From assembly GCA_913775265.1 (NCBI GenBank), contig CAJYJH010000065.1, positions 62,001-126,000 on the forward strand: a DNA stretch of 64,000 bases, given 5' to 3'. The stretch's first letter is position 1. Each line of letters begins with the position of its first letter. This document shows, in pieces, positions 14,040 to 49,489 of the stretch. Under the pieces are notes generated by a model. That model was not told where the DNA came from, made no database searches, and worked only from the letters and a program-made list of their open reading frames with translations. The translations under genes were made by a program, and so were the position numbers. This stretch comes from an uncultured Mucilaginibacter sp. (GTDB lineage: Bacteria; Bacteroidota; Bacteroidia; Sphingobacteriales; Sphingobacteriaceae).

Positions 14040-14074
14040 AAACCGCCATGCTAATCAACTTAGCATGGCGGTTT
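14040..14074 (-). terminator. Terminator of ffh
   Basis: A perfect 15-base-pair stem (14040-14054 with 14060-14074) has a 5-base loop. On the minus strand it is followed by a T-rich tract (TTGTTTTTAT), so it is oriented to end ffh transcription. Confidence 0.88.
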
Positions 14075-38143: not shown

Positions 38144-38177
38144 ATTTGTTTTTATAAAAATTAAGCCTTTAATTTAC
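38144..38177 (+). promoter_or_regulatory. Candidate promoter of the thr operon
   Basis: A TTTG at 38144-38147 and TAATTTAC at 38170-38177 are separated by 22 bases, near the Bacteroidetes -33/-7 pattern. It lies 27 bases before the leader peptide ATG. Confidence 0.35.
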
Positions 38178-38203
38178 GGCTGTAGATCAACTACATACAA
38201 CGA

Positions 38204-38269
38204 ATGATTTTTAACAGCACCATTATTATTACCATTATTACCATCGGCACAGCGCTCGGAGGAAGGTAA
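38204..38269 (+). CDS. thrL: thr operon leader peptide
   Basis: A 21-codon ORF, MIFNSTIIITIITIGTALGG plus Arg, with 4 Thr and 7 Ile codons clustered at positions 6-16, as in the E. coli thrL peptide. It is not a functional protein but a sensor of charged Thr- and Ile-tRNA. Its last codons and stop cover the segment GGAGGAAGG (38258-38266), which can form an antiterminator. It lies 82 bases upstream of thrA. Confidence 0.88.
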   Translation: MIFNSTIIITIITIGTALGGR

Positions 38270-38340
38270 TTGTATGGTGTAATCAAAACATAAAAAACCA
38301 GCAAAGCGCCTTCCTCCACACAGGAAGGCGCTTTTGTTTT
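38258..38340 (+). promoter_or_regulatory. thr attenuator: antiterminator and terminator
   Basis: Two exclusive pairings are visible. GGAGGAAGG (38258-38266) is exactly complementary to CCTTCCTCC (38309-38317), giving the antiterminator. The latter also lies in the 5' arm of a perfect 13-base-pair hairpin (38303-38315 with 38322-38334) followed by TTTTGTTTT, the terminator. A ribosome stalled on Thr/Ile codons frees 38258-38266 and permits antitermination; one that reaches the stop at 38267-38269 hides it and lets the terminator form. Confidence 0.87.
38303..38340 (+). terminator. Attenuator terminator before thrA
   Basis: 13-base-pair GC-rich stem, loop CCACAC and a T-rich tail at 38332-38340, ending 11 bases before the thrA ATG. 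Confidence 0.9.
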
Positions 38341-38351
38341 AATATGCATTT

Positions 38352-40802
38352 ATGAAAGTTTTAAAGTTTGGGGGCACATCAGTAGGCACAGCGCAAAGTA
38401 TCGAAGCTGTAATGAACATTGTTAGGCAGGAACACCAGTCGGGCGAAGGTTTGGTAGTGGTATTATCTGCTATGAGCGGTGTAACTAATTTGTTGGTGGA
38501 AATGGCCGACAGGGCCGCGGCCGGTGATGATTTTGCTAAGTACCTGGCTGCACTCGAAATCAGGCATTTTGAAGTAGTAAAACAATTGCTGGATATTCCG
38601 CACCAAAACCCGGTTTACACCCGCTTAAAAATTTACTTTAATCAGCTCGAAGATTTGCTGCAGGGCGTTATGGTGTTGCGCGAGCTTACTCCCAAAACAC
38701 GCGACTTGATTTTAAGCTACGGCGAACGTTGCTCAACACTGTTAATCAGCCGGATGGCTTTACAGTATTTTGATGATGCCGTTTATGTTGATGCTACCGA
38801 AGTAGTTAAAACCGACAGTGCTTTTGGACAGGCCCGGGTAAATACCCAACTAACCGAGTTACTGATACAAGGTTTAGCGCAAGAGAGTGCCGGAAAAGTG
38901 CTGTTTGTAACCGGCTTTATTGCCAGTAACGAGGCCGGTCAGGTAACTACTTTGGGTCGTGGCGGCAGCGATTATACTGCGGCTATATTTGGTGCAGCAT
39001 TAAACGCTTCGGAAATACAAATATGGACCGATGTAAACGGGATGATGACGGCCGACCCACGTATGGTAAAAAAGGCATTTTCATTACCCGAGCTTACTTA
39101 TACCGAAGCCATGGAGCTTTCTTACTTCGGCGCCAAGGTGATTTACCCGCCTACCATGACTCCGGCTTTTTTGAAACGTATCCCTATCGTCATCAAAAAT
39201 ACTTTTGATACAGCCTTTGCCGGTACGGTTATCCGTCATGACTGTAACGGGTCTAACCTGCCTATTAAGGGTATTTCATCTATCGAAAACATCAGCATCA
39301 TCAACCTGCAGGGTAGCGGTATGGTAGGTAAAGCAGGCTTCAGCGGTCGCTTGTTCTCACTGCTGGCCCGTGAGCAGATCAACGTCATGCTGATTACCCA
39401 ATCATCATCAGAGCATAGCATTACCTTTGCGGTACAACCAGCAGATGCCGAAAAAGCCTGCCGCCTGATAGAGCAGGAATTTGAGTTAGAGTTGGGTGCC
39501 CGTAAACTGGAGAACCCGATTATTGAGTCGAGCCTGGCGGTACTGGCCATTGTTGGCGAAAATATGAAACAAACACCGGGCATGTCGGGTCGCTTGTTTC
39601 ATGCACTGGGCCGTAACGGTATCAACGTAAGAGCTATTGCACAGGGGTCATCGGAGTACAACATTTCCGTAATCATCTCTGCTCATGATTTAGCTAAAGC
39701 TGTCAACGCGGTACATGATGCATTTTTTGTGCAGTTTAACAAAACGCTTAACGTATTCTGTTTAGGTACAGGTAATATTGGTAAAACCATGTTTAAGCAA
39801 CTGCTGCAACACACCGAATTTTTAGAAGAAAATAATAGTATACAGGTTAAGATTGCCGGTATAAGCAATACCCGTAAAATGACCTTCAACGCCGAAGGTT
39901 TAGACTTGAACACCTGGCAGCAGGACCTTGACACTTATGGCGAAACTGCCGATTTGGATGAGTTTGTAGACCGCATGAAGAGCATGAACCTGCCTAACTG
40001 CGTTTTTGTAGATAACACGGCCAGCCCCAAACCTATTGCTTACTACCAAGGTATTTTCGAGTCTACTATCTCTATTGTTACCTGTAATAAAATTGGTAAC
40101 TCAGGTGAGTACAGTCAATACAAGGGCTTTAAAGATGCGGCCCGCAAACATGGTGTCGACTTTTTCTACGAAACCAACGTGGGGGCAGGTCTGCCGATTA
40201 TCCGTACGCTGAAAGACTTGATGGTGAGCGGCGACCGGGTACAAAAAATTGAAGCTATTTTATCAGGCACCATCTCTTTCATCTTTAATAATTTTAAAGG
40301 TGATGCCAGTTTCCATGACGTAGTATTGTCGGCCCAGGAAAAAGGCTACACCGAACCCGATCCTCGTGATGATTTGAGCGGTAAAGACTTTATGCGTAAG
40401 ATACTCATCCTGGCACGCGATGCCGGTTACCACATGGAGGCCGAGGATGTAGAAATCGAAAATATGCTGCCGCAAGCGTGCTTAGATGCACAAAATGTCC
40501 CGGATTTCTATGCAGCCCTAAAAGCCAACGACGAATATTTCAATAACATCAAGCAACAGGCTGAAAGCAGCGGTAAGGTATTGCGTTATATAGGCAAACT
40601 GGATGATGGTAAAGCCTCGATTACCCTGCAAATGGTGGACGAAAGCCATCCGTTCTTCAGCATGTCGGGTAGCGATAATATCATCGCCTTTACGACCGAC
40701 CGCTATAAAGAGCGCCCGATGGTGGTTAAAGGCCCTGGTGCAGGTGCCGAGGTAACAGCAGCCGGTGTATTTGCCGATTTAATTAACGTAGGCGCTAATT
40801 AA
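38352..40802 (+). CDS. thrA: Bifunctional aspartate kinase/homoserine dehydrogenase I
   Basis: An 816-residue fusion. N-terminal aspartokinase (KFGGTSVGTAQSIE at residue 4; GRGGSDYTAAIFG about 201), two ACT regulatory repeats (about 315-465, both with LIxQGSSE-like signatures) and C-terminal homoserine dehydrogenase (GTGNIGKTM about 474, FYETNVGAGLPII). It carries the first and third steps from aspartate to threonine and methionine, with likely Thr feedback through ACT. It is the first gene after the attenuator; thrB follows after 44 bases. Confidence 0.97.
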   Translation: MKVLKFGGTSVGTAQSIEAVMNIVRQEHQSGEGLVVVLSAMSGVTNLLVEMADRAAAGDDFAKYLAALEIRHFEVVKQLLDIPHQNPVYTRLKIYFNQLEDLLQGVMVLRELTPKTRDLILSYGERCSTLLISRMALQYFDDAVYVDATEVVKTDSAFGQARVNTQLTELLIQGLAQESAGKVLFVTGFIASNEAGQVTTLGRGGSDYTAAIFGAALNASEIQIWTDVNGMMTADPRMVKKAFSLPELTYTEAMELSYFGAKVIYPPTMTPAFLKRIPIVIKNTFDTAFAGTVIRHDCNGSNLPIKGISSIENISIINLQGSGMVGKAGFSGRLFSLLAREQINVMLITQSSSEHSITFAVQPADAEKACRLIEQEFELELGARKLENPIIESSLAVLAIVGENMKQTPGMSGRLFHALGRNGINVRAIAQGSSEYNISVIISAHDLAKAVNAVHDAFFVQFNKTLNVFCLGTGNIGKTMFKQLLQHTEFLEENNSIQVKIAGISNTRKMTFNAEGLDLNTWQQDLDTYGETADLDEFVDRMKSMNLPNCVFVDNTASPKPIAYYQGIFESTISIVTCNKIGNSGEYSQYKGFKDAARKHGVDFFYETNVGAGLPIIRTLKDLMVSGDRVQKIEAILSGTISFIFNNFKGDASFHDVVLSAQEKGYTEPDPRDDLSGKDFMRKILILARDAGYHMEAEDVEIENMLPQACLDAQNVPDFYAALKANDEYFNNIKQQAESSGKVLRYIGKLDDGKASITLQMVDESHPFFSMSGSDNIIAFTTDRYKERPMVVKGPGAGAEVTAAGVFADLINVGAN

Positions 40803-40846: not shown

Positions 40847-41866
40847 ATGGAACAGGAAATAGAGAAAGAGGCAGCGCCAACCGGCGTTAATTTATCTACA
40901 GATAATAACAACCTGAATTTAAAGCATCCGGCACCCGGCACCGAAGTAAAAGTTTTTGCACCGGCAACCGTAGCCAACGTAGTTTGTGGCTTTGATGTTT
41001 TAGGTTTTGCCGTAAACGAACCCGGCGACGAGGTGGTAATGCGGGTGACTGCCCAGCCCGGCATCACCATTAGCAAAATAACCGGCGATAACGGTCGTCT
41101 GCCGCTCGATCCGGCTAAGAATACAGTAAGCGTAAGCGTACAACATTATCTGGAAAGCATTGGCCGTACCGATTTAGGTTTAGATATTGAGCTGCACAAA
41201 AAAATGCCTATCGGCAGTGGTTTAGGCTCAAGTTCGGCCAGTACCGTGGCTGGTTTATTTGCTGCCAAAACCTTGTTAGGCGACGAGCGGGATGTAGCCA
41301 AACTGCTGCCCTTTGCCATGAAAGGCGAAGAAATGGCTTGCGGCCATGGCCATGCCGATAACGTTGCACCTGCTTTATTAGGCGGTTTTGTGTTAATTCG
41401 CAGTTACGAACCTTTAGATGTGATCCGTCTGCCGCATCCGGCAGGTTTACACTGCGCCGTAGTTTTCCCGGATGTAGATGTACCTACCCGCGAGGCCAGG
41501 CAGATCATCCGCAATAAAATAGCCATGAAAGATGCCGTTACCCAATGGGGCAATATCGCCGGTTTAGTCAGTGGTTTATATACGCAGGACATTGACCTGA
41601 TAGGCCGCAGCATGCAGGATGTATTGGTAGAGCCGGTACGTTCTATACTCATCCCCGATTTTTATACCATGCGCCAACTGGCCATGGAGGCTGGTGCGGT
41701 AAGCTTTGGTATATCAGGTTCAGGCCCATCAGTGTTTGCCTTTACACGCGACGAAAAAACTGCCCGCCTGATTACGCAAAAACTACAGCAACACCTGGCC
41801 GGTATCAAAATAGATTCACAGGCTTATGTTTCTACTATTAACGATGCCGGACCAAGGGTGCTTTAA
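40847..41866 (+). CDS. thrB: Homoserine kinase
   Basis: A 339-residue GHMP kinase that phosphorylates homoserine. The core begins at VKVFAPATVANVVCGFDVLGFA (about residue 34), with the ATP motif PIGSGLGSSSAST near residue 123 and GISGSGPSVFAF near residue 286. The 32 residues before the core (Glu/Asn-rich, MEQEIEKEAAP) have no counterpart in E. coli ThrB, but the only in-frame ATG is at 40847. Second gene of thrABC. Confidence 0.95.
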   Translation: MEQEIEKEAAPTGVNLSTDNNNLNLKHPAPGTEVKVFAPATVANVVCGFDVLGFAVNEPGDEVVMRVTAQPGITISKITGDNGRLPLDPAKNTVSVSVQHYLESIGRTDLGLDIELHKKMPIGSGLGSSSASTVAGLFAAKTLLGDERDVAKLLPFAMKGEEMACGHGHADNVAPALLGGFVLIRSYEPLDVIRLPHPAGLHCAVVFPDVDVPTREARQIIRNKIAMKDAVTQWGNIAGLVSGLYTQDIDLIGRSMQDVLVEPVRSILIPDFYTMRQLAMEAGAVSFGISGSGPSVFAFTRDEKTARLITQKLQQHLAGIKIDSQAYVSTINDAGPRVL

Positions 41867-41899: not shown

Positions 41900-43204
41900 A
41901 TGAAATTATATAGTACCAATAATCCTGCATCAGCAGTGTCGTTTAAAGATGCTGTTTTTAACAGCATGCCGCAGGATAAAGGCTTGTACATGCCGGTACA
42001 GATTAACCGCTTACCTGATAGCTTTTTTGAGCAACTGCCCAAACTAACCCTGCCACAGATTGCCTTTGCGGTGGCTCATCATTTATTAGCTAACGCTATC
42101 CCGGAAAACGATTTGCGCAACCTGATTAATGATGCCGTTAACTTTGATGCACCGGTAGTAAAGCTGGAAAATGACGTGTATGTGCTCGAGCTTTTCCACG
42201 GACCATCCTTAGCTTTTAAAGACTTCGGTGCCCGCTTTATGAGCCGGGTGATGAGTTATTTTTTAGAGGAAGGCGAGAAGCAGTTAGATGTACTGGTGGC
42301 TACCTCGGGCGATACCGGCGGAGCTGTAGCTTTAGGTTTTTTAGGTGTGCCTAATACTCGGGTAACTATCCTATACCCTGAAGGTAAAGTAAGTGATATA
42401 CAAGAGCTGCAACTCACCACTAACGGCCAAAATATTCGTGCCCTGCAAATTGATGGCACTTTTGATGACTGCCAGGCATTAGTAAAGCATGCTTTTGTGG
42501 ATGATGAATTGAATGAGGCATTCCGTTTAACATCAGCTAACTCTATTAATATTGCAAGGTTGATTCCGCAAACCTTTTATTACTTTAATGCTTACGCACA
42601 ACTGCTGCGCGAGGGTAAGGGCAATGTAGCATTTTGTGTGCCCAGTGGTAACTTCGGTAATATTGGTGCCGGATTGCTGGCCTGGAAAATGGGTTTGCCG
42701 GTAACCAAGTTTATTGCAGCTACTAACGCTAACGATACGGTGCCTGCTTATTTTAAAACAGGTGTATACGAGCCTAAACCCTCTGTACAAACTATTGCTA
42801 ACGCGATGGATGTAGGTAACCCCAGCAATTGGGCCCGTATTGCCGATTTGTTTAAAGAGGATGCCGAAGCATTAAAGCAACTCGTAGAAAGCCACAGCTA
42901 CACCGATGAGCAAACCCATCAGGCAATTAAAGATGTATACAACAGCTATGATTATGTGGTTTGTCCGCACACCGCTATCGCCTGGCGCGCGCTAACCGAT
43001 TGGCAGCAAAGCCACCCGGGAGTTACCGGCGTGTTTTTGTCTACTGCACATCCTTGCAAGTTTCCGGATGTTTTTTCGGAGCCTATTGCCTCCAATGTAG
43101 AAGTGCCCGAACAGGTGCGGGCCTTGGCCAGCCGTGAAAAGCATGCGGTAGCCTTAGGAAAAGATTTCACATCGTTTAAAAACTATTTGCTGAGTAACGG
43201 TTAA
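41900..43204 (+). CDS. thrC: Threonine synthase
   Basis: A 434-residue PLP enzyme that turns O-phosphohomoserine into threonine. The PLP lysine lies in HGPSLAFKDFGARFM (about residues 98-112), followed by the phosphate loop ATSGDTGGA and CVPSGNFGN. Length fits the E. coli-type ThrC group. Third gene, 33 bases after thrB. Confidence 0.97.
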   Translation: MKLYSTNNPASAVSFKDAVFNSMPQDKGLYMPVQINRLPDSFFEQLPKLTLPQIAFAVAHHLLANAIPENDLRNLINDAVNFDAPVVKLENDVYVLELFHGPSLAFKDFGARFMSRVMSYFLEEGEKQLDVLVATSGDTGGAVALGFLGVPNTRVTILYPEGKVSDIQELQLTTNGQNIRALQIDGTFDDCQALVKHAFVDDELNEAFRLTSANSINIARLIPQTFYYFNAYAQLLREGKGNVAFCVPSGNFGNIGAGLLAWKMGLPVTKFIAATNANDTVPAYFKTGVYEPKPSVQTIANAMDVGNPSNWARIADLFKEDAEALKQLVESHSYTDEQTHQAIKDVYNSYDYVVCPHTAIAWRALTDWQQSHPGVTGVFLSTAHPCKFPDVFSEPIASNVEVPEQVRALASREKHAVALGKDFTSFKNYLLSNG

Positions 43205-43938: not shown

Positions 43939-44895
43939 TTAAAAAATCTCCTGCGCAATTCGTTTGGTAGGCTCGGCATTGCCCATAGTGTAAAAGTGTA
44001 GTACCGGGGCGCCAAATTCAACCAGTTCTTTACATTGATTAATCATCCACTCGATACCTACTTCTTTAACTTCTTTATCGTTTTTACAGGCATGTACCGC
44101 GTCGCACAAATCTTCCGGAATATCAATATGAAATATTTTAGGCAGGTTGATAAGTTGCTTTGCGGTAGTGAGCGGTTTCAACCCGGGTATGATCGGTATG
44201 TTGATGCCTTCGGCCCGGCATTGGTTTACAAAAGCTTTGTATTTACTGTTATCAAAAAACATTTGAGTTACAATAAATTGCGCACCAAGCTCTACTTTCT
44301 TCCTAAGATACTTAAAATCTGTTTTTAAGTTAGGTGCTTCAAAGTGCTTTTCGGGGTAGGCCGCTACACCAATACAAAAATCCGTTTTGTACGACGAATC
44401 CTGGTACTCATGCAAGTAAATACCGTTATTCATGTTTGTGACTTGTTCTAACAGATCTGTTGCGTAACAGTGACCACCGGGTGTAGGGATAAAGCCTGAA
44501 TCGGTCTTACGGGCATCGCCGCGCAGTACCAAAACGTTATCAATCCCTAAAAACTGCAGGTCTATCAATGCATATTCAGTTTCTTCTTTGGTAAATCCAC
44601 CGCAAAGCAGGTGCGGTACTGCGTCCACCTTATATTTATTCATGATGGCGGCGCAAACCGCCACGGTACCTGGCCGTCGGCGATAAGTTACCTTTTCAAG
44701 TAGTCCGTTAGGCAGTTCTTTATAAACTAAATCCTCCCGCGATGACGTCACATCAATAAACGGAGGATTAAATTCCATCAACGGATCAATGGCGTTATAG
44801 ATGCCCTGCATGCTCTGTCCCTTAATTGGTGGCAGCAGCTCAAAAGAAAAAAGTGTTTTGCCCTTGGCGTTATTGATGTGCTCAGTTATTTTCAT
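43939..44895 (-). CDS. metF: Methylenetetrahydrofolate reductase
   Basis: A 318-residue FAD enzyme that reduces 5,10-methylene-THF to 5-methyl-THF for MetH. TIM-barrel motifs: FSFELLPPIKG (Glu18), FIDVTSSRED, VLVLRGDAR, CIGVAAYPEKH, TQMFFD and IPIIPGLKPLT. Length is normal. It is the last gene of a metH-RAYT-metF series; the ATG lies 9 bases from the outer REP hairpin, so its translation signals sit in or next to the mobile element. It ends at a shared terminator. Confidence 0.96.
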   Translation of the reverse strand: MKITEHINNAKGKTLFSFELLPPIKGQSMQGIYNAIDPLMEFNPPFIDVTSSREDLVYKELPNGLLEKVTYRRRPGTVAVCAAIMNKYKVDAVPHLLCGGFTKEETEYALIDLQFLGIDNVLVLRGDARKTDSGFIPTPGGHCYATDLLEQVTNMNNGIYLHEYQDSSYKTDFCIGVAAYPEKHFEAPNLKTDFKYLRKKVELGAQFIVTQMFFDNSKYKAFVNQCRAEGINIPIIPGLKPLTTAKQLINLPKIFHIDIPEDLCDAVHACKNDKEVKEVGIEWMINQCKELVEFGAPVLHFYTMGNAEPTKRIAQEIF

Positions 44896-45565: not shown

Positions 45566-48500
45566 TTAATAATTCAAATTCGGCCCCAGCCACCTTTCTG
45601 CCGTTTCTAATGACATATTTTTGCGTTTGGCGTAGTCTTCTACCTGGTCTTTGCCTATTTTGCCTAAGCCGAAGTAGCGCGACTGCGGGTGGGCGAAATA
45701 GAAACCACTTACTGCAGCGGTTGGCAGCATGGCCATGCTTTCGGTTAGATGGATGTGTGCGTTATCGGTAGCTTTTAGTAAATCAAATAGCGTAACTTTT
45801 TCGGTATGTTCAGGACAAGCCGGGTACCCCGGTGCCGGGCGGATGCCCTGGTATTCTTCTTTAATGAGTTGCTGGTTGGTTAATTGCTCTCCTTGGGCAT
45901 AACCCCAATATTCGCGACGTACCAGCTCATGCATTTTTTCGGCAAAAGCTTCGGCCAGACGGTCGGCAATGGCTTTGATCATGATGCTATTATAGTCATC
46001 GTGATCGGCTTCGTACTGCGCCACCAGTTCGTCGCAGCCAATACCGGTAGTTACTGCAAAACCGCCAAAATAATCGGGAACACCACTTTCTTTAGGGGCA
46101 ATAAAATCTGACAAAGCATAATAAGGCTCACCTGCTGCTTTTTCGGCTTGCTGACGTAGGGTATGAATGCGTGCGAGCAGTTGCGTGCGGCTTTCGTCGC
46201 TATACAACTCAATATCATCGCCTACACTGTTAGCCGGCCAAAAGCCAATCACCCCACTGGCTTGTAAAAGGTTATTGTCAATGACTTTCTGCAGCATTTG
46301 TTGTGCATCATCAAACAGCTTTTTAGCCTCAACGCCTATATTTTTATCATCAAATATTTTAGGATAACTGCCGCGCAGCTCCCAGGTATGGAAGAAAGGG
46401 GTCCAGTCGATATAAGGCACCAGCTCTTTAAGTGAAAAAGCTTCAAAAACTTTGGTGCCCGTGAAAGATGGCTTAACAGGAGCAAAACTTTCCAGATCAA
46501 TCTGGTATTTGTTTGACCGGGCCTCGTCAATGCTTAAAAAGCGCTTATCGGAGCGTTTATTCAAATGCGCCTCGCGTGCTTTTTCGTATTCCTGTTTAAT
46601 GTTTTGAATGTACTCGTCGCGGTTGTCTTGGCTCATCAAGGTGCTGCACACCGTAACACTGCGTGATGCATCCAGTACGTGAATAGCAGGACCAGAGTAA
46701 TTAGGCGCAATTTTTACGGCTGCATGGATGCGTGAGGTAGTAGCTCCACCAACAATCAACGGAATAGAAAACCCTTCGCGCTCCATCTCCTTGGCAAAAT
46801 GTACCATTTCATCTAAAGATGGTGTAATCAGTCCGCTTAGTCCGATAATATCGACCTGTTGCTTTTTGGCTTCCTCAATAATTTTCTGAGCAGGCACCAT
46901 TACGCCCATGTCGATAATTTCGAAGTTGTTACAGGCCAGTACCACACCCACAATGTTTTTACCAATATCGTGCACATCGCCTTTTACCGTAGCAAGCAGT
47001 ACTTTGCCGGCATTGCTGCGCTGGCTGGCATCGGCATTTTTTAGCTTTTCTTCTTCAATAAATGGAAGCAGGTAAGCTACCGCTTTTTTCATTACCCGTG
47101 CTGATTTTACCACTTGGGGCAAAAACATTTTACCCGAACCGAACAGGTCGCCCACGATGTTCATGCCATCCATCAGCGGACCTTCAATTACCTCGAGCGG
47201 ACGATCATATTTTTGGCGCGCTTCTTCCACATCATTATCCAGATATTCAACAATGCCTTTCACTAAGGCATGCGATAGACGCTTTTCTACCGGCTCGTTG
47301 CGCCAGGCTTCGTCTTTAACAACTTCTTTGCCTTTGGCTTTTACTGTTTCAGCATATTCTACCAAACGTTCGGTGGCATCGGGCCTGCGGTTAAGCAGCA
47401 CGTCTTCTACCCGCTCTAACAGCGGTTTGGGTATTTCCTCGTAAACTTCGAGCATACCGGCGTTTACGATGCCCATATCCATACCTGCTTTAATAGCATG
47501 GTACAGGAAAGCCGAGTGCATAGCCTCGCGCACGACGTTATTGCCACGGAAAGAGAAGGATATATTACTTACCCCGCCGCTTACTTTGGCAAATGGCAGG
47601 TTCTCTTTAATCCAGCGGGTAGCGTTAATAAAATCAACTGCATAATTATTATGCTCTTCCAAACCGGTAGCTACGGTAAGGATGTTTGGGTCGAAAATAA
47701 TATCCTGTGGTGGAAAACCAATTTCGTTTACCAAAATATCGTATGAGCGCTTACAGATTTCAATGCGGCGTTCATAATTGTCGGCCTGGCCTTGCTCATC
47801 AAATGCCATCACCACAGCGGCGGCACCATAGCTTAATATTTTACGGGCATGCTCTCTGAACTTTTCTTCGCCTTCTTTAAGCGATATAGAGTTAACAATG
47901 CCTTTTCCCTGCAAGCACTTTAAACCGGCTTCGATTACTGTCCATTTAGACGAATCGACCATGATGGGTAGCTTTGCAATATCTGGTTCTGAGGCAACAA
48001 GGTTCAAAAACTTCACCATCACTGCTTCTGAGTCGATCATGCCCTCATCCATGTTGATGTCGATCACCTGTGCGCCGCCTTCAACCTGCTGACGGGCCAC
48101 GGTAAGAGCCTCCTCATAATTTTCGGCCAGAATAAGCTTCGAAAATTTGGGAGATCCGGTGATATTAGTACGCTCGCCAACGTTTACAAAGTTAGCTTCG
48201 GGTGTTATAGTTACGGCTTCTAAACCGCTTAGGCGCATATAGGGTGCTACCTCCGGTTTTTTGCGGGGGGCATGTTTGGCGGCTTTATCGGCAATACACT
48301 TAATATGGTCGGGCGTGGTACCGCAACAGCCGCCCACAATATTTACTAAACCGGCTTTAATAAAATCATCAACTTGGTGAGCTGTTTCGTGCGGTGTTTC
48401 GTCGTACGCTCCAAACTCGTTAGGTAAACCAGCATTAGGGTATGCAGAAATAAATACGTTAGCCTTTTCGGAAAGTTCCTCAAGATACGGGCGCATTTCA

Positions 48501-49240
48501 CGGGCTCCCAAAGCACAGTTTAAGCCTACTGATAGCAGGTTGGCATGGCGTACCGAATTCCAGAATGCCTCAACCGTTTGGCCTGATAAGGTACGGCCTG
48601 ATGCATCGGTAATAGTACCCGAAATCATAATCGGCAGCTTTTTGCCCGACTCCTGTTCGTAACGCTGCACAGCAAATAAAGCCGCTTTGGCGTTTAACGT
48701 ATCAAAAATGGTTTCTATCAGTAAAAGGTCCGAGCCACCATCTACCAAACCGCGTACCTGCTCATAATAAGCTTCGGCTAGGTCGTCAAACGTAACGGCA
48801 CGATAGCCCGGGTCGTTTACATCTGGTGATAATGATGCGGTACGATTGGTAGGGCCTACCGCACCGGCTACAAAACGTGGTTTATCCGGCGTTTTGTGGT
48901 TGTATTCATCGGCAACTTCACGCGCTAAACGGGCACCTTCATAGCTCATTTCATAAGCCAGCTCTTCCATATGGTAGTCGGCCAAACTAATGCGTTGGGT
49001 ACTGAAGGTATTGGTTTCGATAATATCGGCACCGGCATCCAGGTATTCGGCATGAATAGCTTTGATCACATCCGGGCGGGTAAGATTGAGCAAATCATTA
49101 TTGCCCTTTAAATCAGACGGATGGTTTTTAAAACGCTCCCCACGAAAATCATCCTCCGTTAACTGATAGCGCTGTATCATGGTTCCCATGGCGCCGTCAA
49201 TTACCAGTATGCGTTTTTGTAATTGTTCGTATATATTCAT
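45566..49240 (-). CDS. metH: Cobalamin-dependent methionine synthase
   Basis: A full-length 1224-residue MetH. The homocysteine domain has zinc motifs GLNCALG and [11 protein letters not shown]; the pterin domain (about 350-640) has [15 protein letters not shown]; the cap and B12 domain carries [14 protein letters not shown] (about residue 755, His being the cobalt ligand); the C-terminal reactivation domain ends with the SAM-binding region [26 protein letters not shown]. It transfers a methyl from methyl-THF to homocysteine. A SAM-I riboswitch precedes it; a RAYT cassette separates it from metF. Confidence 0.98.
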
Positions 49241-49372
49241 TCTTGAGTATCAGATATTGAGTATCAAGTATCAAGATGCGGTTGCATCACAGGATTTTAA
49301 CCACCTAATTTTTGGTACTTGATATTAAAATAGCTTATGTCGAAAAGTCGGCGGTTTGGAATCTTGACTTTC
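49241..49372 (-). other. Leader between the SAM riboswitch and metH, with GTATCA-type repeats
   Basis: 132 bases. Tandem GAGTATCA (49245-49252, 49259-49266) and a third copy AAGTATCA (49266-49273) lie just before the metH start, and TACTTGATAT occurs near 49314. A second ATAAGC (minus strand, 49333-49338) repeats the P1 3' strand of the riboswitch and may take part in the expression switch. No T-tailed terminator was found here. Confidence 0.5.
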
Positions 49373-49485
49373 GCTTATCCGTCTTAAAATCTGATAGTTA
49401 ACAGTTTTAAGTAGAATGTAGCACCTTGTAAGCACAGGTTGCTAAGACTTCGCAGGGTCCAGTCCCTCCGTCTTTCTCTATAAGC
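49373..49485 (-). ncRNA. SAM-I (S-box) riboswitch
   Basis: The minus strand reads GCTTAT (P1 5'), then GGAGGGACTGGACCCTGCGA, then TTAGCAACC, then AAGGTGCTACATTC, closing with ATAAGC (P1 3' at 49373-49378). These are the conserved S-box core elements in order. About 113 bases long. It binds SAM and should reduce expression of metH and downstream metF when SAM is abundant. P1 strands are 6 bases each and fully complementary. Confidence 0.93.
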
Positions 49486-49489
49486 AGTA

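Follow-up and report, generated by a model that had tools for sequence, protein, structure and literature searches.

A putative ribosome-mediated transcription attenuator upstream of thrABC in Mucilaginibacter sp. and its conservation among Sphingobacteriaceae

Organization of the thrABC locus and its leader region

The window, i.e., the whole 64-kb stretch of DNA analyzed here, belongs to a genome assembly of 4.9 Mb in 110 contigs. On its + strand it contains thrA (38352-40802), encoding a bifunctional aspartate kinase/homoserine dehydrogenase I (NCBIfam NF006959, 1039 bits with a cut-off of 726), thrB (40847-41866; homoserine kinase, NF002288 and TIGR00191) and thrC (41900-43204; threonine synthase, TIGR00260). 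The nearest gene upstream of thrA is rsgA, which is divergent from thrA. On the - strand, a metF-like ORF (43939-44895) and a metH-like ORF (45566-49240), both named by eye, were observed together with a SAM riboswitch (RF00162, 63.8 bits) at 49372-49486, upstream of both ORFs.

A short leader ORF, also conserved in relatives, is located in front of thrA at 38204-38269 (+ strand, as are all features of the element described below). It starts with an ATG at 38204-38206, has 21 sense codons, among them 4 Thr and 7 Ile codons, and ends with a TAA stop codon at 38267-38269. The translation, MIFNSTIIITIITIGTALGGR*, agreed base for base with the 21-codon Thr/Ile leader claimed in an earlier note on this DNA. 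From the leader translation and the codons used in relatives, codons 6-16 (38219-38251) were assigned as the putative regulatory Thr/Ile codon block.

Promoters of Bacteroidota have the consensus TTTG-N19..21-TAnnTTTG. Upstream of the leader a possible -33 element of this type, TTTG, was read at 38145-38148 and a possible -7 element, TAATTTAC, at 38170-38177, which would place the transcription start near 38182-38184. CTTTAC-like boxes similar to the -7 element of the window were found upstream of the leaders of several relatives for which the upstream sequence was inspected.

Competing RNA helices between the leader ORF and thrA

Between the leader and thrA a terminator hairpin of 13 bp was identified at 38303-38334 by folding and by a terminator scan. 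Its stem is formed by 38303-38315 and 38322-38334, with the loop CCACAC at 38316-38321 and a folding energy of -21.5 kcal/mol, and is followed by the T-rich tail TGTTTT at 38335-38340. The distance of 11 bases between the end of this tail and the ATG of thrA at 38352 was also as previously described. Since rsgA is divergent, the terminator is part of the 5' leader of thr and does not end transcription of any neighbouring gene upstream on the + strand.

The end of the leader ORF can pair with the 5' arm of this terminator. The sequence GGAGGAAGG at 38258-38266, which adjoins the stop codon and is referred to here as the leader tail, is the exact reverse complement of CCTTCCTCC at 38309-38317, so that the complementarity proposed in the earlier note was found with all coordinates in agreement. 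Together with the wobble pair T38267-G38308 as a tenth pair, the outer antiterminator helix consists of 38258-38267 as the 5' strand and GCCTTCCTCC (38308-38317) as the 3' strand, the latter overlapping the 5' arm of the terminator. When the transcript was folded as it would be before synthesis of the 3' arm, an inner antiterminator helix appeared as well, in which TTGT-A-TGGT (38270-38278) pairs with ACCAGCAA (38297-38304). The minimum free energy fold contained a further helix, here called the protector, in which GCACCAT (38217-38223) pairs with ATGGTGT (38274-38280) directly 3' of the stop codon. In the window the protector and the inner helix both use UGGU and are thus mutually exclusive, resembling strands 1:2 and 2:3 of a four-strand attenuator.

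The 171-nt region folded with -45.4 kcal/mol, compared to -28.0 ± 3.9 in 200 dinucleotide shuffles (z -4.5), and 0 of the 200 were as good. When the 200 nt upstream of thrA were shuffled 2000 times in the same way, no shuffle contained such a leader and 2 contained such a hairpin, and leader, hairpin and 8-nt complement occurred together in 0/2000. An origin by chance or as an isolated terminator was rejected on the basis of these shuffles and the divergent upstream gene. With one strict rule, three intrinsic-terminator-like hairpins in total were found in the whole window: that at 38303-38334, which qualifies in either orientation, and two on the - strand near 14074 and 8217.

Conservation of the leader, terminator and tail-arm helix in Sphingobacteriaceae

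One rule set was applied to thrA upstream regions, comprising a Thr/Ile-rich leader, a terminator 3' of the leader and a helix between leader tail and terminator arm. Set A consisted of the 80 thrA loci closest to that of the window (73-97% identity); 71 of these carry the label Mucilaginibacter, and the other 9 are MAGs with no finer name than Bacteroidetes or Sphingobacteriaceae bacterium. The genome of the window belongs to Mucilaginibacter or lies near this genus. Set B consisted of 80 of the 106 Sphingobacteriaceae matches, leaving out 8 matches (G214, G204, G241, G261, G154, G170, G151, G185), 14 genomes of the same genus (among them the own genome and G099) and 4 already present in the phylum sample. 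The leader was present in 80/80 loci of set A and 79/80 of set B, in line with the leader-codon conservation that the earlier note had asked to be checked in related Sphingobacteriaceae. A terminator was identified in 77 loci of set A and 75 of set B, i.e., in 152 of the 160 relatives, and all three parts in 77 and 74, respectively. Five further Sphingobacteriaceae loci from the phylum sample had leader, terminator and all three parts in 5/5, and the window locus itself passed the full rule. The full architecture was thus found in 157 of 166 Sphingobacteriaceae thrA loci, or in 155 of 164 distinct loci after removal of duplicates (L053 = L085, L084 = L194). The nine family loci that failed the rule are L057, L058, L080, L218, L259, L269, L270, L272 and L273. 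In two loci (L005, L088) an early stop codon ends the leader ahead of the tail.

Outside the family, 104 loci were analyzed by the same rule set, which was tuned on Sphingobacteriaceae; a leader was found in 27 of these, leader plus terminator in 1 and all three parts in 1. This sample was drawn from the 106 genomes with a match minus G029, G057, G081, G074, G019 and G035, and 4 of the 104 loci are second copies (L169, L191-L193). The sole outside locus that passed, L118, has a sequence unlike the others and may be a real attenuator. Another outside locus, L090, is of the family type by eye, yet fails the rule.

Every one of the four Thr and three Ile codons is in use in the Thr/Ile block of the family leaders. 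The share of Thr/Ile in the other two reading frames is near zero across the leaders, which is partly expected because the ORF was selected for its Thr/Ile content.

Covariation of the leader tail and the terminator arm

In nearly all leaders of set A the tail is read as Gly-Gly-Arg-stop. In other genera the same GGAGGAAG is read as Arg-Arg-Lys-stop or as Glu-Glu-Gly, and in some loci translation runs through GGAGGAAG to a stop codon ∼12 nt further, ending in MV*. A rough automatic tally of 157 loci gave 92 GGR-like, 22 RRK-like, 16 EE-like and 27 other readings. As the same tail RNA is read as GGR*, RRK* or EEG*, it is constrained as RNA and not as peptide, and a conserved GGR peptide motif was rejected on these grounds. 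The Shine-Dalgarno-like GGAGGAAG was kept at the leader end in many loci of sets A and B, where pairing alone would allow more change. Bacteroidota ribosomes are reported, in the part of the source available, to fail to recognise Shine-Dalgarno sequences (PMC9976891).

Tail and arm variants that change together were found by genus: CGGGGC or CGGGAC with GTCCCG, ATCGGGAGC/GCTCCCGAT, CGAGGGAAGT/GCTTCTCTCG, GAGGGGAGT/GCTTCCCTC and CGGGAAGG/CCTTCCCG. In a plain MAFFT alignment (64 distinct loci; 153 of 161 entered) many leader tails were one base out of register; therefore, pairs were not counted there and cross-locus duplex tests were used. The duplex of each tail with its own arm had a mean energy of -16.1 kcal/mol compared to -13.9 kcal/mol with the arms of other loci, and 0 of 10000 permutations, which ignore relatedness, were as good. 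For this test 5 of its 166 loci were dropped, having no terminator by its rule, and the 92 distinct arms include a few false hairpins (L057, L090, L269, L272). The covariation in the competing stems, the other check proposed in the earlier note, was thereby observed.

The two additional helices were compared in the same manner in 76 loci. The protector had a mean of -9.98 within loci versus -8.15 between loci, and the inner helix -5.17 versus -4.17; in either case 0/5000 permutations, again ignoring relatedness, reached the own value. In L234, for example, the protector is formed by ATTACAACAT pairing with ATGTTGTAAT. The genus tests covered these 76 loci in 16 genera. With one random locus drawn per genus, the own value was reached by a median fraction of the shuffles of 0.004 for the outer helix (worst draw 0.08), 0.003 for the protector (worst draw 0.09) and 0.013 for the inner helix (worst draw 0.38); by these values the inner helix has weaker support. 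Both predicted helices go beyond the model of the earlier note and have support from cross-locus pairing, to a lesser degree for the inner one.

Relation to known attenuators

Over 38150-38360, 17 weak Rfam matches were obtained at E up to 1, the best being Thr_leader (RF00506) with 36.7 bits and an E of 1.2e-5 over the full model length (1-118). The gathering score of this family is 55. A Thr/Ile leader and a terminator before thrA, as in RF00506, are present, and the score lies below gathering. Thus the element appears to work like Thr_leader, but by the curated Rfam gathering score is not a member. All three family loci matched in this way gave RF00506 as well (L006, 40.6 bits; L089, 36.5 bits; L087, 36.0 bits), and at E up to 1 it was matched in 0/9 loci from other families.

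The likeness to E. coli thrL, to which the earlier note had pointed for the use of Thr/Ile codons, turned out to be closer than claimed. Like the window, E. coli K-12 has a Thr/Ile leader of 21 codons, a stop-adjoining tail that is complementary to the 5' arm of the terminator, and thrA behind it. Its tail, GGTGCGGGCT, forms a duplex of -23.4 with the terminator arm, and the terminator is located 16 nt after the stop codon. The window differs from E. coli thrL and RF00506 in the sequence of tail and arm and in the phylum, and the inner antiterminator helix of the window is absent from the fold of the E. coli thrL segment.

Comparable leaders were found in front of other amino-acid genes of the own genome. 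Upstream of pheA (L277) the leader MKLNNAFGFGFYYFYFSSKSRD* contains Phe/Tyr codons and is followed by a terminator, and upstream of a trpE-like gene (L278; 430.7 bits, below the TIGR00564 cut-off of 517.7) the leader MTKQLHNLGWWHLI* with Trp-Trp codons is also followed by a terminator. The best Rfam matches of these leaders were Phe_leader (RF01859, 29.5 bits) and Trp_leader (RF00513, 24.6 bits), both below the gathering scores of 55 and 41, respectively. Upstream of ilvD (L275), a TTG-started ORF with the Ile/Leu/Val stretch LQILIVNLIL was observed, for which the rule gave no terminator; this ORF could be a branched-chain leader or due to chance.

Candidate attenuators were reportedly found also in Bacteroidetes/Chlorobi by Vitreschak et al. 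in 2004 (FEMS Microbiol Lett). In the accessible part of a study on Flavobacterium psychrophilum, strong hints of attenuation by leader peptides are reported for the regions preceding amino-acid operons, and elements of unknown type for those preceding pheA and hisG; thrA does not occur in its main text (PMC9723704). Small ORFs reminiscent of leader peptides are described, in the available portion of the source, for Bacteroides thetaiotaomicron (PMC7366714), and leader genes in general, with Bacteroidetes included, are treated in the part at hand of another article (PMC4833913). Bacteroid-trp (RF01692) is a Bacteroidetes motif with a cis-reg flag according to the section available of its source (PMC2864571); it matched neither over 38150-38360 at E up to 1, nor in the window at gathering scores, nor in the pheA and trpE-like leaders. 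In the accessible parts of the literature on thr and leader-peptide attenuation in Bacteroidetes, Bacteroides, Cytophaga, Flavobacterium and Mucilaginibacter, covering few subscription papers, no description of the element was found.

Proposed mechanism and alternative explanations

The locus has a leader ORF rich in codons for the products of the operon, an intrinsic terminator between leader and thrA, and a covarying antiterminator that starts at the leader end and is exclusive with this terminator, as in the class of ribosome-mediated attenuators. From these sequence features, i.e., the leader, both competing helices and their exclusiveness, conservation and covariation, and the downstream operon, the element is very probably a ribosome-mediated transcription attenuator of the thrABC operon. 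The same function had been proposed in the earlier note, and it gained support from the conservation of the leader, the covariation of the stems and the closer match to E. coli thrL.

When charged tRNA-Thr or tRNA-Ile is short, the ribosome would stall within codons 6-16 and break the protector (38217-38223 with 38274-38280), by which 38258-38278 would become free. As soon as 38297-38317 is made, the free strand could pair with it to form the antiterminator, which would occupy the 5' arm of the terminator, and RNA polymerase would continue into thrA. With ample Thr and Ile, the ribosome would get to the stop codon at 38267 and cover 38258-38266 and the RNA just 3' of it. With the tail covered, the hairpin at 38303-38334 would form and transcription would stop at about 38335-38340. 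We infer stalling, the order of folding and termination in the cell, as well as a role of the protector when the leader is not translated.

In a static folding model with masked ribosomes no clean switch was observed. Among the ribosome positions tried on the full-length RNA, only stalls at codons 9 and 10 favoured the antiterminator; the terminator prevailed without a ribosome and for codons 6, 13, 14, 16 and the stop codon. When the RNA was cut at 38319, the antiterminator won without a ribosome and for codons 6, 9, 10, 13 and 14, and failed for codon 16 and the stop codon. Therefore, folding order or kinetics must decide. The order of folding also matters in other attenuators.

A constitutive intrinsic terminator or a processing hairpin in the 5' leader, with the Thr/Ile ORF there by chance or encoding a non-regulatory small protein, would be compatible with a hairpin that is strong alone (-21.5 kcal/mol). 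This explanation is very improbable, as the leader is conserved with synonymous variation among its codons, the tail persists in three reading frames, and tail and arm co-vary. A predominantly non-transcriptional mode of leader-dependent control, exerted by the prematurely terminated leader RNA or the peptide in trans or by a fold controlling thrA translation, is just as unlikely: genera with other tails keep the pairing with their own arm and the hairpin with its T tail points to termination, although GGAGGAAG is nearly invariant in many loci, which pairing alone does not demand, and the apex side carries CCTTCCTC in 103 of 161 stems.

A metabolite-binding riboswitch or T-box before thrA has next to no probability and was rejected on the Rfam matches, in the window at gathering scores and over the element at E up to 1. 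Such elements do control amino-acid genes, and a SAM riboswitch is present elsewhere in the window before the metH-like ORF, but apart from this riboswitch (RF00162 at 49372-49486) nothing in the window reached a gathering score, and the 17 weak matches over the element, of which Thr_leader was the best, included neither type.

The kind of switch assigned here, a ribosome-mediated attenuator, is itself not new and would be expected by a specialist; the value lies in its family-wide extent and the extra helices. An E. coli-style signature of thr attenuation, with covariation, is the rule among the sampled Sphingobacteriaceae, and neighbouring families keep a Thr leader without a terminator, which makes the contrast with Sphingobacteriaceae valuable. 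If the mechanism holds, coupling of ribosome and polymerase would be implied for Bacteroidota. The data further yield predictions that can be tested on thr, phe and trp genes of a single genome, and could be used to curate a Bacteroidota branch of Thr_leader.

A terminator-less threonine leader element in other Bacteroidota

The terminator-less Thr-leader element before thrA is the more novel by-product of this analysis. At many thrA loci of other families the Thr/Ile leader ends in a small hairpin whose loop holds the stop codon or lies next to it (e.g., L101:4093-4145, L105:1394-1445, L117:118-169 and L138:590-644, among others). The stems of these hairpins show compensated changes, such as ACCCC-UUA-GGGGU, ACGGG-GUGA-CCCGU and CAACCC-GUUA-GGGUUG. 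CAUAU follows within 26 nt after the hairpin in 15 of 20 such loci, and the longer ACAUAUMAUCC in 7/20; the terminator rule was passed by 0/20. Rfam gave no match over the element at E up to 1 in L101, L103, L105, L106, L108, L110, L117 and L138.

A covariance model, R1, was built from 16 terminator-less elements and compared with 100 sources, namely 99 of the 109 thrA loci of the phylum sample and the hisG locus. At E up to 1, 19 of the 100 were matched, 16 of them its own members. A search over 60 genomes of the class gave 1 match, which says little since only 96 candidates were scored per genome under strict filters.

In the Sphingobacteriaceae genus g95 (L263-L271), a strong TACGC/GCGTA-like stop-codon hairpin was found in 4 of 9 loci (L267, L269, L270, L271), with leaders such as MTFYTTYTTTTTTLKA*, and a weaker one in 4 more. 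Seven of the nine loci pass the full attenuator rule, and L267 and L271 have both the strong hairpin and the terminator. A rather unlikely but conceivable scenario is that the attenuator of the family and the terminator-less element represent two states of one old threonine sensor before thrA, with g95 as an intermediate. If this were true, leader translation would be read in an as yet undescribed way in the terminator-less state; control by Rho or at the level of translation can be guessed.

A related observation was made at hisG of the own genome (L274, G000:C72), where the leader MNGITLHHLHMHHRPCGDND* runs straight into the hairpin ATCGCC/GGCGAT. No terminator by the rule and no match to R1 were found upstream of this gene, and the arrangement resembles the terminator-less type.
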